Source: a virus. From it: a stretch of DNA of 42,044 nt. Location of the stretch: positions 1-42,044 of the IMG/VR virus record IMGVR_UViG_3300033233_000077; one strand, 5' to 3'. Of the stretch, positions 6,886 through 42,044 are shown in pieces. Every line of letters starts with the position of its first letter. Position 1 is the first letter of the stretch. A model generated the notes under the pieces. It was given only the letters and a program-made list of their open reading frames with translations. It was not told where the DNA came from and did no database searches. A program made the translations under genes and the position numbers.

Positions 6886-9402
6886 ATGAGCATAGTCTGC
6901 GATACCGGCTTTATCAACATTGTCGATCCGTTCTTGAACCCGGATAGCACCGTGTGGACCGGCTCGATTACCTACACGCTGCAGTACGCCACGACGGTTG
7001 CTGGTGCAACGCTGGTTGAGGCGCGGCAGGTTATCAACGTCTCAGACGGGATTGATATCTGTCTGGCTCCTGGGCTGTACACGGTTGTCTACAACCAGAG
7101 CGGCCAGCGGTTGCCGGTTACTTCGCAGTGGACGGTTCCACCGACCGGCGGGCCGTACACTATCGCGGATCTTGAAGGCGTTGGACCTGTGACTGGTTCG
7201 TTGACGGTGACCGGACCGTTTATTGCAATGTCCACGGTAACGATGACGTCGCTGATAAATGCAGCGGCGCGGCCTTACGTTGCCACGGACTCAGTAGGAT
7301 TGTTGAGCACCGGAAACCTTGCGTTGGTAGCGATATCTGGCTCAGCGTCAGACCTTGCCTCTGGTACGGTAGCAGCAGCACGGGGCGGCGCAGGAACGAT
7401 TAGTGGCATTTTAAAGGCAAACGGTGCAGGCGTCGTTTCGGCGGCGGTAGCGGGCACGGATTACGCAGTAGCGACGAACGGCACAAACGCACAATTCCTG
7501 ACAAGCAATGGCGCTGGAGGTTTTGGCACGGCTGTCAGCTCAACCGGTACGGGTTCAGTTGTGTTGGCAACGTCACCGACGCTAACAACTCCTGATCTTG
7601 GAACGCCGTCTGTATTGGTTTTAACTAACGCTACCGGACTACCGGCTGCAGCGATGCCAGGCCTGACAGGTGACGTGACAAGCTCGGCCGGTAGCGTAGC
7701 AACAACGGTGGTGAAGATTAACGGCACGACGCTTGCCACGCTTGCCACCGGTATCCTGAAAAACACGACGACGACCGGCGTTCCTTCCATCGCGGTAGCA
7801 GGTACAGATTACGCAGTAGCGACGAACGGGACAATCGGGCAGGCTCTCACCAGCAATGGCGCTGGCGGTTTTGGAACAGCGGTGACGCTTGCCACCGTGG
7901 CAACATCGGGTAGCGCGTCTGACCTCACAGCGGGAACATTGGCAGCGGCACGGGGCGGCGCTGGAACGCTGACTGGCATTCTGAAAGCAAACGGTGCTGG
8001 CGTTGTTTCAGCGGCAACAGCCGGTACTGATTACGCGGTAGCCACCAACGGGACAATTGGCCAAGCCTTAACTAGCAACGGAACTGGCGGATTTAGTACT
8101 GCGCTTACTCTTGCAACGGTGGCAACATCGGGTTCAGCTTCGGACTTGGGATCTGGAACGCTGCCAGCAGCTCGGCTGCCAGCTTTGACTGGTGATGCAA
8201 CAAGCTCCGTGGGATCGGCGGCAACTACAGTGGTGAAGATCAACGGCACCGCGTTGTCTGGGCTTGCAACGGGCTTGCTCAAAAACACAACGGCGACTGG
8301 CGTGCCATCAATTGCCGTGGCCGGAACAGACTATGCGGTAGCTACAAACGGAACGCTTGGCCAGGCTCTGACGAGCAACGGTACCGGCGGATTCTCGACG
8401 GCTCTTACCTTGGCCACGGTAGCAACATCTGGTAGCGCGTCTGATCTCACAGCCGGAACATTGGCAGCGGCACAAATGCCAGCATTGACCGGAGACGTTA
8501 CCACCACGGTTGGCACCGTAGCAACGACCGTCAGCAAAATCAACGGCACCACGCTTTCTGGGTTGGCGACGGGACTGCTGAAAAACACGACGGCAACCGG
8601 CGTCCCGTCCATTGCCGTAGCTGGTACCGACCTGATCGGCGGCGTGGGCAACCTGACCACGGTTGGCTCGGTGCCGTATGTCTCGGCCTCTGGGATTCTG
8701 AATCAAGATCCTGCGGATTTTTTCTGGGATGCCACAAACAACAGGCTGGGCATCGGTAGTAACGCGCCTATCACTACGTTGCACGGACAAGGGTTAGCAA
8801 ACACAGCATTTACAAATAACCCGGGAACCTTATATCTGCATGCAACAGACGCATTTGCAACAGGTATGGGAGCAGGCATATGGTTTTCTGGAAGATATAC
8901 TACCAGTACTGCGGTTAACGTGTATGGCTATATCGGAGGCCTAAAAGAAAACGCGACCGATGGAAACCAGGCTGGCAAGCTAGTGTTTGGCACGAGGCAA
9001 AACGGAACGGGCGGAGCCGACATGACGCGCATGACGATTCTGTCTAGCGGCAACGTGGGTATCGGGACGACAACGCCGGGCCAAGCGTTAGACGTGTTAG
9101 GCAGTGCCCGAATTTACAGCTCTACTGCAGATGCTGCCATTTTGATAGGCAGCGATCAGGTAGACGCCAACAGTGGTAAGATTTCATACAATCGAGGTAC
9201 TGCCAATCTGGACATTACACCACGGTCTACGTATGCCACGAATCTGGCGGGTAAGTTAAAGTTCAGTATCACGAACTCAACCGGAGCGGGTTCAGCCCTT
9301 CTTGGTGCTAATTGTCCAGCGGTAACAGTCATAAATCCATACACATGGATTACAGTTACTACGTCAGACGGCTCAATCGGTTATATGCCCATCTGGAAAT
9401 AA
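6886..9402 (+). CDS. Repeat-rich tail fibre protein
   Basis: An 838-aa Ala/Gly/Thr/Ser-rich protein with few charges, typical of a trimeric fibre. Residues 1-100 form a distinct head domain. Residues about 146-590 carry repeated beta modules with recurring phrases SGSASDL-GT-AAAR, GTDYAVATNGT, QALTSNG-GGF and LTGDVTS-VG-ATTV-KINGT. The C-terminal part has two copies of a N-RLGIG/NVGIGTTTP-LDV motif (near residues 619 and 723) that is common before fibre tips, and it ends GYMPIWK. No peptidase S74 chaperone is evident. It probably binds the host surface. AAAGGG lies 5 nt before the start. It sits, unusually, between the capsid and connector genes and not after the tail hub, so a head fibre is an alternative. 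Confidence 0.75.
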   Translation: MSIVCDTGFINIVDPFLNPDSTVWTGSITYTLQYATTVAGATLVEARQVINVSDGIDICLAPGLYTVVYNQSGQRLPVTSQWTVPPTGGPYTIADLEGVGPVTGSLTVTGPFIAMSTVTMTSLINAAARPYVATDSVGLLSTGNLALVAISGSASDLASGTVAAARGGAGTISGILKANGAGVVSAAVAGTDYAVATNGTNAQFLTSNGAGGFGTAVSSTGTGSVVLATSPTLTTPDLGTPSVLVLTNATGLPAAAMPGLTGDVTSSAGSVATTVVKINGTTLATLATGILKNTTTTGVPSIAVAGTDYAVATNGTIGQALTSNGAGGFGTAVTLATVATSGSASDLTAGTLAAARGGAGTLTGILKANGAGVVSAATAGTDYAVATNGTIGQALTSNGTGGFSTALTLATVATSGSASDLGSGTLPAARLPALTGDATSSVGSAATTVVKINGTALSGLATGLLKNTTATGVPSIAVAGTDYAVATNGTLGQALTSNGTGGFSTALTLATVATSGSASDLTAGTLAAAQMPALTGDVTTTVGTVATTVSKINGTTLSGLATGLLKNTTATGVPSIAVAGTDLIGGVGNLTTVGSVPYVSASGILNQDPADFFWDATNNRLGIGSNAPITTLHGQGLANTAFTNNPGTLYLHATDAFATGMGAGIWFSGRYTTSTAVNVYGYIGGLKENATDGNQAGKLVFGTRQNGTGGADMTRMTILSSGNVGIGTTTPGQALDVLGSARIYSSTADAAILIGSDQVDANSGKISYNRGTANLDITPRSTYATNLAGKLKFSITNSTGAGSALLGANCPAVTVINPYTWITVTTSDGSIGYMPIWK
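7320..8660 (+). repeat. Imperfect repeats in the fibre gene
   Basis: Units beginning near 7321, 7888, 8107 and 8404 encode variants of the same beta module, with internal sub-repeats. The copies differ mostly at silent positions. Such an array can change copy number by recombination and thereby alter fibre length. Confidence 0.7.
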
Positions 9403-22919: not shown

Positions 22920-23354
22920 ATGACCGAGAAAGCATACCAGGAACTTTGTGCTCGGGCCGGTATCTCACCATTGGCCGGCTCGGGCAAGGCAAAGGCGCAC
23001 AAGTACAACGCGGTGAAAAAGACCGTGGACGGGGTGACGTTCGATTCAGCCGGTGAGGCTCGGGCGTTCGCGTTGCTCAATTTGTGGCATAAGGTCGGGG
23101 CAATCCAGAGCCTGGAGCGGCAACCACGCTACACGCTTATGGATGGCTACGTTGACGCCACGGGGCGCAAGGTGCGAGCTATGGAGTACGTGCCGGACTT
23201 CCGCTTCATCCGCGATAACAAAATCGTTGTGGTGGACTTCAAGGGTATGAAAACGGAAGCGTACAAGCTCAAGGCGAAGCTGTTTCGGCAGCGATACCCG
23301 TATCTGGTGTTTGAAGAGTGGGACGTTACCACGCTGAAGCAAAACGGAGTATAA
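22920..23354 (+). CDS. DUF1064-like nuclease
   Basis: A 144-aa protein matching the DUF1064 pattern, a small PD-(D/E)XK-type phage nuclease thought to act on branched DNA in recombination. Visible parts are TVDGVTFDSAGEARAFALL (the E helix), LERQPRYTL, a strand YVPDFRFI, then KIVVVDFKGMKTEAYKLKAK, which holds the D...D-x-K active-site arrangement. A helix with LFRQRYPYLVF follows. It ends within a candidate promoter (TATAAT 23350-23355) for the structured leader downstream. Confidence 0.8.
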   Translation: MTEKAYQELCARAGISPLAGSGKAKAHKYNAVKKTVDGVTFDSAGEARAFALLNLWHKVGAIQSLERQPRYTLMDGYVDATGRKVRAMEYVPDFRFIRDNKIVVVDFKGMKTEAYKLKAKLFRQRYPYLVFEEWDVTTLKQNGV

Positions 23355-23355
23355 T
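23326..23355 (+). promoter_or_regulatory. Candidate promoter for leader A
   Basis: TTACCA (23326-23331), 18 nt, then TATAAT (23350-23355), overlapping the end of the nuclease gene. Transcription would begin near 23362, exactly at the first hairpin of the leader. Confidence 0.5.
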
Positions 23356-23361
23356 GGGTTT

Positions 23362-23465
23362 GTCGGATTGATCCCCGACGCGGATTGGAATTCACCCGGC
23401 TTGCAGCCTACCTCCTGCGGGCCGGGTCCATTCTCAAAACTTTGAGGTAGAGAGGTAGATCAATG
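23362..23465 (+). promoter_or_regulatory. Structured leader A with SD-complementary loop
   Basis: P1: GTCGG (23362-23366) with CCGAC (23375-23379). P2: GGAAT (23387-23391) with ATTCT (23430-23434), ACCCGGC (23394-23400) with GCCGGGT (23421-23427), and GCAG (23403-23406) with CTGC (23415-23418). The apical loop (23407-23414) holds CTACCTC, the exact complement of GAGGTAG, present twice just before ATG 23463 (23444-23450 and 23452-23458). The second copy is the natural Shine-Dalgarno sequence. A competing hairpin CTCAA/TTGAG (23433-23446) covers the first copy. This suggests translational control by a pseudoknot. Confidence 0.6.
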
Positions 23466-23669
23466 ACAAACGAGACGGCGCAACCTGCGCCAAAAACAGA
23501 ACACGCATCGATACGCGCCGTGCGGGCGTTTGTGCAGAAGCACGCGCCACAACAGAGCCCAAAGGACGTGGAGCTATTCATCAACGACCTGATGCGGCTG
23601 TTGCGCGTCGTGATCCGTGAGGCGGCGCATGAAGTCACCAGCTACATGCTGCAAGGTCTGCGGCGATGA
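23463..23669 (+). CDS. Small protein behind leader A
   Basis: A 68-aa protein, helical and without known motifs. It has an N-terminal Pro/Glu-rich stretch, then a helix with IRAVRAFVQKHAP and a second with IREAAHEVTSYMLQGLRR. It is the first gene after the structured leader and its last 4 nt overlap the DUF1376-like replication gene (ATGA). Leader control of its translation would extend to the replication protein by coupling. The small size suggests a regulator or a leader cistron. Confidence 0.55.
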   Translation: MTNETAQPAPKTEHASIRAVRAFVQKHAPQQSPKDVELFINDLMRLLRVVIREAAHEVTSYMLQGLRR

Positions 23670-24508
23670 AGGCGTACAAGTCTCCAGCGTTTCAATTCTA
23701 CCCGGATTCTTGGCTCTCTTCGATGGACATTACCCTTATGACATCAGCCGAAGAGGGTGCATATATTCGCCTCTTGTGCCATGCTTGGCTTTCTCCAGAT
23801 TGCGGCCTTCCAGCCGACTCCAGAGCGCTTCAGACTTTGTCTAGACTTGGCTCAGCATGGTCAAAAAGCGAAGCCACCATCAGGGCGAAGTTTCGACAGG
23901 AAGACGGGCGCATATACAACGACAGGCTTCTTGCAGAACGTAGCAAACAAGAGGTTTGGCGTGAGAAAAGCAGCGCAGGTGGTAAGCGCTCAGGTGCAAC
24001 CAGACGTGAAGCAAACCACGAACCAAAAACGAAGGGTGGTTCACTTTTGGTTGACGATTTACATGAACCAAATGGCAACTCTTCTTCTCCGTCTCCATTT
24101 CCAGTAAATACAAAAGCAAAAACACACACACCAACAGCGGCAAAAACCGCCGCAGTGTCTGTGATCGATCCGGTGGAAGGTTGGTTCTCTCAGGAGTTCT
24201 GGCCTGTCTATCCCCGGAGAGAGGCGAAGGTCGCAGCCTTGAAAGCAGCTCGGGCTGTGCTGAAAACTCCAGAACTTCGAGCGGCGGCTCTCCGGGCGCT
24301 GACGTTGCAGCTTCCGGACCTGACCAGCAGACCGCCAGACAAACGACCTCACCCGGCGACGTGGATTAGCGGGCGGCGGTGGGAAGATGAACCGGCGTTG
24401 CCGTTTATCTCGATGCCACGATCTAGCGAGAACGGTAACGGGAAAATTGGGTTTGAGGAATCGGTAGAGCGAGAATTACAGAAACGGTTTATGGAAGGGC
24501 GTTTATGA
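23666..24508 (+). CDS. DUF1376-like replication protein
   Basis: A 280-aa protein with an N-terminal DUF1376 pattern (residues 3-70: SPAFQFYPDSWLSS, MTSAEEGAYIRLLCHAW, GLPADSRALQTLSRL), a winged-helix-like domain of phage replication initiators. A low-complexity linker follows (residues ~110-165). A C-terminal part (FWPVYPRREAKVAALKA...PHPATWISGRRWEDE) is seen at the end of many phage replication organisers. It probably recruits the host helicase or primase to the phage origin, as no such enzyme is encoded here. It is coupled to both neighbours by ATGA overlaps. Confidence 0.78.
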   Translation: MKAYKSPAFQFYPDSWLSSMDITLMTSAEEGAYIRLLCHAWLSPDCGLPADSRALQTLSRLGSAWSKSEATIRAKFRQEDGRIYNDRLLAERSKQEVWREKSSAGGKRSGATRREANHEPKTKGGSLLVDDLHEPNGNSSSPSPFPVNTKAKTHTPTAAKTAAVSVIDPVEGWFSQEFWPVYPRREAKVAALKAARAVLKTPELRAAALRALTLQLPDLTSRPPDKRPHPATWISGRRWEDEPALPFISMPRSSENGNGKIGFEESVERELQKRFMEGRL

Positions 24509-41107: not shown

Positions 41108-42044
41108 ACGCTGAACCCAAGCACATGGTTCCGACCGGACCCGCCAGCAACACCATTACCCGACCTGATTCGTGTGGCATCTGCCGGCTACCAGCGGGAA
41201 GCCTCGCAGCAGCAGACAATCCGCACGTTATACGGGGCGCTCGATGAGCTGCAGGCGTTGGAAGCGCTGCGTATCCGGGAGCAGTCAGAAGATGACGGCG
41301 AACTGCGGGAAGCGCTGGCAATGGCTGGGCCGACGTGGCAAATGCCAACGGTAGTAAACGGACCCGGCGGAAAGGTACTGCGCGAAGCAATCGACGCGAC
41401 CGGGGCTTACGGAGATGTAGAACTGGCGCTTCAGAACGCGGAATGGCGGCGCGAGGTTAACGGTTCGTGGACGGAGTTCTCACGATGGGGCATTCAGCAG
41501 ATTATGCTGATCTCCCGGCTGTACTTCATCAAAAATCCGATGATCCAGCGCGGCATCAACGTTTCTGCTCAGTACGTGTTTGGGCGCGGCGTGGAGATCA
41601 CAAGCACGGACGAAAGCGCAAATCAGGTTATCAAAGACTTCCTGAAACGTAACGAACGCGTGCTGGGCCAAGTTGCGTTGCAGGATCTCGACCGACGCAA
41701 ATACTACGACGGGAACCTGTTCTTTGCGCTGCATTCCGACCCGCGTGACACCGGCGAAGTCAACATCCGGACTATCGACGCGCTGGAGATTCAGGAGATT
41801 GTATCGGACCCTGACGACACTGATCTGCCGCAATACTACCGGCGGCAATGGGTCAAAAAAGGTTTTGACTACAGAAGCGGCGCGGTATCCTACACAACGA
41901 TCACGGCATGGTATCCGGCTCTCGGTTACGATCCAGCAGACAAGCCGGCAACGATTGGCAGCTACGACGTTATGTGGGATGTTCCGATTTATCACCGGAA
42001 GTGTGGCGGCGTTGGCAAATGGCAGTTTGGCGTTCCGCTGGTTT
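41105..42044 (+). CDS. Portal protein, N-terminal part
   Basis: The first 313 residues of the portal gene, cut by the window end; the rest is at 2-1111. It starts MTLNPSTWFRPDPPATP with no Shine-Dalgarno sequence; TAAAAT ends 7 nt upstream. Portal-like elements include the helical SAGYQREASQQQTI region, a WGIQQIMLISRLYFIKNP segment and DRRKYYDGNLFFALHSDPRD (the wing/stem part). The last 182 nt repeat the left end with only synonymous differences. The TerL gene lies about 8 kb upstream, and the MuF and protease genes follow across the junction. Confidence 0.9.
   Translation, partial: MTLNPSTWFRPDPPATPLPDLIRVASAGYQREASQQQTIRTLYGALDELQALEALRIREQSEDDGELREALAMAGPTWQMPTVVNGPGGKVLREAIDATGAYGDVELALQNAEWRREVNGSWTEFSRWGIQQIMLISRLYFIKNPMIQRGINVSAQYVFGRGVEITSTDESANQVIKDFLKRNERVLGQVALQDLDRRKYYDGNLFFALHSDPRDTGEVNIRTIDALEIQEIVSDPDDTDLPQYYRRQWVKKGFDYRSGAVSYTTITAWYPALGYDPADKPATIGSYDVMWDVPIYHRKCGGVGKWQFGVPLV
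41863..42044. repeat. Terminal overlap, right copy
   Basis: Right-hand copy of 1-182 (four mismatches). Trimming one copy gives a circle of about 41,862 bp with an intact portal gene. Confidence 0.93.

Follow-up and report, generated by a model that had tools for sequence, protein, structure and literature searches.

A phage leader RNA whose hairpin loop matches tandem Shine-Dalgarno copies points to a lock on replication genes in several specificities

The window, which is the whole stretch of DNA analyzed in this study, comprises the 42,044 nt of the IMG/VR virus record IMGVR_UViG_3300033233_000077 (positions 1-42,044). The record ends (2-182 and 41864-42044) are 98% alike over 181 nt without being identical copies, as is seen in genomes with terminal redundancy or circular assembly, and diverged direct repeats (7318-8630, 70-73% alike, up to 300 nt) are found inside an 838-aa open reading frame (6886-9402). 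A leader of about 100 nt is located between a DUF1064 gene and a small gene (23463-23669), with the following features:

22920-23354: DUF1064 gene, the upstream neighbor of the leader
23326-23331, + strand: weak -35 box TTACCA, separated by an 18-nt spacer from the -10 box
23350-23355, + strand: -10 box TATAAT
23361-23380, + strand: 5' hairpin TGTCGG-ATTGATCC-CCGACG, at the predicted transcript start (about 23362)
23381-23384, + strand: conserved CGGA, between the 5' hairpin and the long hairpin
23382-23384, + strand: GGA, able to pair with 23431-23433 (outer helix)
23386-23389, + strand: TGGA, pairing with TCCA at 23427-23430 (inner basal helix); TGGC/GCCA in most relatives
23395-23426, + strand: specificity (long) hairpin, with a 12-bp stem (arms 23395-23406 and 23415-23426), or a 13-bp stem with A23394-T23427 included (hairpin 23394-23427)
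23407-23414, + strand: apical loop CCTACCTC, 8 nt, with both target copies complementary to its last 7 nt
23444-23451, + strand: target copy R1, GAGGTAGA, 8 nt, with GAGGTAG at 23444-23450
23452-23459, + strand: target copy R2, GAGGTAGA, 8 nt, with GAGGTAG at 23452-23458; contains the Shine-Dalgarno sequence (SD) of ATG 23463
23463-23669, + strand: small gene (sORF), 68 aa, the first gene of the operon
23666-24508, + strand: replication gene (DUF1376; PHROG primosomal / replication initiation)

The 5' hairpin of the window starts 5 nt after the -10 box, the tandem repeats end 3 nt before ATG 23463, and the stop codon of the small gene overlaps ATG 23666 of the replication gene as ATGA. A preliminary description of this DNA had reported the promoter, the hairpins, the loop, the GAGGTAG copies, the ATG, and the ATGA overlap, and all of these were found in place; the replication gene downstream and the overlapping codons also agree with its link to a replication operon. 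No Pfam or PHROG match was found for the product of the small gene, which is 37-99% identical in relatives, where in-frame indels support its coding nature. The heptamer GAGGTAG occurs nine times in the window compared to 1.94 expected. Three of the occurrences are within the element, while the role of the six others (10633, 18552, 22403, 28143, 40188, and 40368) is unexplained.

Relatives were collected from viral contigs, giving 13 records including the window and 15 leaders, of which 11 distinct ones were examined. Searches with the replication, small, and DUF1064 proteins led to seven further contigs with the locus. The leader of L002 is identical to that of the window, and L003, L004, and L005 have the long hairpin and the repeats in common with the window but carry another 5' hairpin. 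In L006 and L007, a different long hairpin with the loop ATCTGCCC is accompanied by repeats altered in concert (GGGCAGAA twice), and the small protein is 97-99% identical to that of the window. L011 has the loop TCGTTCCC, the repeats GGGAACGA twice, and a small protein with 37% identity to that of the window. As types A, B, and C came from these protein searches, they were found independently of the loop-target pairing. The loop-target pairing was kept in all seven further records with the DUF1064 and small genes; relatives that retain the proteins without it had been named beforehand as the observation that would speak against an RNA switch.

A pattern on the 5' hairpin alone matched 24 stretches, eight of them with leaders and four of those new, and together with two further patterns it yielded L038, L043, L047, L052, and L072. 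Pattern matches lacking a properly spaced -10 box and a loop-target match were dropped (16 of 24, 6 of 14, and 8 of 14) and were mostly coding-like sequence. L038 contains two leaders in a row, one of type D (loop ATTCACTCC, targets GGAGTGAC and GGAGTGAA) and one of type B' (loop CTCTGCCC, target GGGCAGAA twice). Type E is represented by L047 and L072 (loop TCTTGTCC, targets GGGCAAGA and GGACAAGA, with one G.U), while L052 combines a B' leader with a second leader, G, that has a single target, and L043 is of the likewise single-target type F. It was the pairing itself that drew attention to types D and G, so they are not independent tests of it. The collection included five tandem-target (class I) specificities and two leaders with one target, which lie directly ahead of the replication gene:

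L043, 9078-9175, minus strand: single-target leader
L052, 9972-10063, minus strand: single-target leader

In types F and G, the target is part of a small hairpin close to the start codon, and the predicted loop-target contact would possibly be one of loop to loop. The repeats of class I are always tandem, with a period of 8, and end 2-3 nt before the ATG, hence R2 begins 10-11 nt before it; the first bases of R2, as read by eye, resemble an SD in every type. The 5' hairpin sequence GTCGGAYTGATCCCCGAC was kept across different cassettes (a cassette being the stretch from CGGA to the start codon), and another 5' stem with a TAGCT loop replaces this hairpin in L003, L072, L038, and L052.

The genes behind the leader varied among the relatives. 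The leader is followed by the small gene and the replication protein in the window, L002-L007, and L011, by a nuclease-like gene and the replication protein in L038 and L047, and by the replication protein directly in L043 and after the second leader of L052. Profiles of the initiator, primosomal, or helicase-loader types were matched in the window, L011, L038, L043, and L047; no profile matched the replication protein of L052, which was called by eye from its likeness to that of L011. The replication proteins of L011 (4524-5345) and the window (23666-24508) share 80% identity over the C-terminal residues 168-280 and have unlike N-termini, with the N-terminus of L011 resembling that of L052 by eye. 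On this partly visual basis, a domain swap in the replication protein is suggested.

The combination of a hairpin loop with complementary tandem copies of period 8, searched as a descriptor, occurred once in the window, in none of 100 dinucleotide shuffles of the window (one strand), and nowhere in 356,656 nt of strand sequence covering 19 loci that lack the leader. Model R1, built from nine leaders with L043 left out, recovered 14 of the 15 leaders in 13 of the 17 records searched, including L043 (E 1.4e-6), and missed leader G. Both the descriptor and the model gave only one leader of this kind in the window, and a second one ("leader B") of the preliminary description was not borne out. The competing hairpin CTCAA/TTGAG that it had also proposed is not conserved and is not used in the minimum free energy structure of the window; that of L003 contains a 4-bp form of it, and that of L006 a different 7-bp hairpin over the repeat junction. 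The overall minimum free energy of the window leader was only modestly better than that of shuffles (z -1.66).

A DNA search of cultured phages and plasmids identified no relative of the leader; one plasmid match (31 nt, E 0.9) was taken as chance. For the replication protein, no tblastn match was found in phages, and model R1 found no leader in either stretch from two cultured phages with a replication protein related to that of L043. Searches of species genomes likewise gave no leader, and two matches there were rejected as lying in coding-like sequence without a hairpin. L008, L009, and L010 start inside the replication gene and are uninformative on the leader, while in L012 (near 5001) a RusA gene precedes a replication protein whose N-terminal part is retained, and no comparable leader is present there.

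The promoter candidate of the window has 10 of 12 consensus matches. Seven promoter-like sites were found in 11 kb compared to 4.3 expected, and the match alone is therefore weak. In all 11 distinct leaders, the distance from the end of the best -10-like hexamer (four to six of six matches to TATAAT) to the 5' hairpin is 4-6 nt, and this constancy indicates that the transcript would begin with that hairpin, consistent with the start near its base in the preliminary description. The -35 boxes are poor in most of the 11 distinct leaders (two to five of six matches), and G-rich letters (GTGG, GGAG, GTAG, and GCGG) occur just upstream of the -10 box in all leaders, a combination perhaps reflecting an activator- or phage-dependent promoter. 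No intrinsic-terminator-like site was found in the window leader, which disfavors simple attenuation.

Covariation was assessed for the helices and for the loop-repeat pairing. In a model-based alignment of 10 leaders, whose fitting to the structure favors its pairing figures, 97.5% of 244 cells paired and 14 of 25 pairs changed on both sides, and neither value was reached by any of 500 shuffles. The long stem carried most of this signal, with all cells paired and changes on both sides at 11 of 12 pairs. The 5' hairpin (helix 1) was 92.9% paired, the misses being rows with the other hairpin form. The outer helix (helix 2) was 100% paired and nearly invariant, hence covariation provides little support for it, and in the inner basal helix (helix 3), pair 31-72 changed from C-G to A-U in three of 10 rows.

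Loop-repeat counts were taken from the ungapped alignment A8 of six distinct hairpins, type D among them; the MAFFT alignment A7 and the repeat part of A6 were left unused for these counts due to gaps or shifts inside the repeats. All 42 cells paired between the loop and R1, as did all 42 between the loop and R2; double changes occurred at six of the seven positions, and none of 500 shuffles reached either the percentage paired or the covariation score. When the loop-target register was slid, the pairing dropped to 39-60%. The count of further pair types was unexceptional, being reached by 87 and 266 of 500 shuffles. Shuffled targets gave at least seven pairs in 4,649 of 200,000 cases with G.U allowed, an estimate that is loose because few letters are involved, so that the slid registers are the better control. 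R1 and R2 are indistinguishable by covariation because they are near copies. One R1 cell of type E is a G.U, and this wobble and those in the stems hold only on the + strand, which identifies the + strand as the RNA. With every loop-repeat cell paired across six distinct hairpins, chance is untenable. The substitution patterns demonstrate that the loop-repeat and in-stem complementarity exists at the RNA level and is kept by selection, the loop-repeat part on the support of six sequences, which are few. The pairing of the loop with the tandem SD copies, first proposed from the window alone, was thereby substantiated by covariation and by the + strand wobbles.

The pairing is also largely specific to each type. 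With Watson-Crick pairs only, matches between loops and the targets of other types reach 3 nt at most. If G.U pairs are counted as well, the B loop matches the A target over 6 nt and the C loop the D target over 7 nt, hence the orthogonality of the types is incomplete. The loop has 8-9 nt, usually including one unpaired 5' nt, the stem lies 17-19 nt from R1, and the net loop-target energy after target opening is -7.1 to -10.7 kcal/mol when calculated without a pseudoknot penalty.

Comparisons among relatives revealed different cassettes in near-identical phages and identical cassettes in diverged phages. For example, the window and L006 are 62.0% identical in the cassette, 98.1% in the small gene, and 90.5% in the upstream part. 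Conversely, the window and L003 share 96.4% identity in the cassette and 87.4% in the small gene, and L047 and L072 have a 100% identical cassette with differing 5' hairpins and flanks. These contrasts between cassette and flanks indicate that the cassette moves as a unit. By analogy, such swaps would fit the pattern of incompatibility or immunity determinants, with ordinary modular recombination as the alternative.

The leader is probably a self-contained translational repressor RNA that acts through loop-SD pairing ahead of the replication operon, and the replication gene following the leader was counted in favor of this reading. As best read from the pairing, repression would occur in cis (as a pseudoknot), in trans (as an antisense RNA), or both. 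Transcription would start at the base of the 5' hairpin, and the long hairpin would display a 7-8 nt key in its loop. This key, whose pairing is known from covariation, would engage R2, which holds the SD of the first gene, and could thus block ribosome binding; through the stop/start overlap, the block would extend by translational coupling to the replication initiator. The cis form would be an H-type pseudoknot, which the 8-9 nt loop, the 17-19 nt linker, and the net energies fit. The same loop might pair with another transcript in trans, an action that the cassette swaps, the unlike adjacent leaders in L038 and L052, and the C4 and CI precedents fit. R1 would form a second, near-identical dock adjoining the SD. 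Since pairing at R1 would leave the SD of R2 free, R1 may be an ON position or a sponge for its own loop. The predicted output is a replication brake dependent on transcript dose. Overall, the comparisons point to an undescribed RNA lock on phage replication with several specificities, comprising at least five matching loop/target pairs.

Other readings of the element were considered. It is quite possible, if somewhat short of probable, that the hairpin, either processed or within the leader, is a trans-acting immunity or incompatibility RNA directed against the replication operon of same-type co-infecting phages, where new loop/target pairs would escape and the types diversify. This reading is compatible with the cis repressor and adds trans action to it. 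The steady linker suits cis pairing, neither a processing site nor a gene for a separate small RNA was identified, and some foreign pairings become long with G.U, as for the B and C loops above; nevertheless, the cassette swaps in all three comparisons (window/L006, window/L003, and L047/L072), the five class I specificities with their short foreign Watson-Crick matches, and the adjoining leaders of different specificity in L038 and in L052 argue for trans action. So do two precedents: C4, where loops occlude ribosome sites (PMC5320573), and CI, with two target sites (PMC4825925). No match to a tyrosine integrase, serine recombinase, or HTH_3 repressor (PF00589, PF00239, and PF01381) was found in any of the 13 records, and lysogenic immunity of the classical prophage kind is therefore unlikely, with the reservation that most of the records are fragments. 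More tentatively, phages without signs of lysogeny could use the loop/target pair as an RNA code for recognizing themselves. Within a co-infected cell, each type would then repress only its own kind, which would amount to copy counting and to exclusion of the same type, and frequency-dependent selection on this recognition would drive the repeated replacement of the short cassette toward mutually orthogonal types.

A conditional switch resembling a riboswitch or thermosensor, in which the 5' hairpin and CGGA would bind a ligand or protein that sets the loop on or off the SD, appears unlikely. The retention of the 5' hairpin sequence across different cassettes hints at a recognized element, but its replacement by the TAGCT-loop form in four records leaves no strictly conserved aptamer core, and no Rfam riboswitch was found at the gathering score. 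Least plausible by far is an element acting as DNA, in which the tandem repeats would serve as iterons and the hairpin would belong to a replication origin: the element does adjoin the replication gene, and the tandem 8-mers are iteron-like, but the wobbles (R1 of type E and several stem pairs) are valid only in + strand RNA, and the distances to the ATG and the -10 box are fixed and the content is SD-like. If the leader is the repressor RNA preferred here, it would represent a family of leader RNAs in phages, undescribed as yet, in which a diversifying 7-8 nt recognition code controls access to replication genes. Counted in Watson-Crick pairs, the loops are close to orthogonal, and their small size would allow them to be rebuilt. 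RNA-based counting or exclusion among phages of the same kind would thereby become directly testable, and the loop/target pairs would be natural candidates for orthogonal translational switches.

In Rfam 15, no C4 (RF01695) match was found at the gathering score in the window, L038, L043, L047, L052, or L011, and three other families, C4 not among them, appeared at E up to 10 in window positions 23320-23520. Within the open-access literature searched, no paper was recognized as describing this layout. The earlier statement that no named motif has this layout thus stands for Rfam 15 at curated scores and gives way where function is concerned, as P1/P7 C4, P4 CI, and I-complex RNAI, which it did not name, are close precedents for the principle that a hairpin loop is complementary to short sites at the ribosome site of an operon's small first gene. 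The comparison with C4, CI, and RNAI draws on five sources (PMC5320573, PMC4825925, PMC8198154, PMC10724649, and PMC2864571).

C4 of P1/P7 is described as an RNA upstream of its own target in one operon, with loops that pair with short sites, one of which occludes a ribosome site; a small gene, icd, lies ahead of the controlled gene, and a variable loop gives specificity (PMC5320573, PMC8198154). The leader here is similar in lying upstream of its target in one operon, in a variable loop that carries the specificity, and in that this loop, judged by sequence and covariation, pairs at the ribosome site of the small gene with which the operon begins. However, C4 has three stem-loops, separate targets for the loops a' and b', excision by RNase P, and an antirepressor operon, whereas the leader has two conserved hairpins, of which the 5' one stands at the predicted start, a single loop that pairs, a tandem pair of near-identical targets, and a replication operon. 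P4 CI, according to PMC4825925, is a small phage RNA complementary to two sites (seqA/seqC) in the leader of a replication operon. The two target sites and the replication operon are common to both systems; the CI sites flank the RNA, one upstream and one downstream, and CI acts by premature transcription termination in a prophage, whereas here the two sites follow the RNA as a tandem located on the SD, and the records gave no integrase match.

In plasmids of the I-complex, replication control involves RNAI, stem-loop I, and the activating repY-repZ pseudoknot. The RNAI of these plasmids controls the translation of the replication initiator by loop pairing, and changes in the top loop affect compatibility, according to PMC10724649. 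RNAI is transcribed as an antisense RNA from the opposite strand, whereas the loop here belongs to the sense strand and would mask the SD. The counter-transcript feature of the RNAI type was not observed, as the wobbles are valid on the + strand only and the partners are short and on one strand. The Gifsy-1 IsrK/orf45-anrP system, as outlined in PMC4825925, involves a phage RNA that targets the ribosome site of a small ORF, and this ORF is coupled to the controlled gene. It resembles the leader in this arrangement and is set apart by its description, as IsrK activates and has another layout. By analogy, the leader would work like P1 C4, P4 CI, and the replication-control RNAs of plasmids, and it is a member of none of them. 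A control RNA for phage replication genes that lies on the sense strand and has a single loop and tandem targets would be new, while the principle behind it is already known from these systems.
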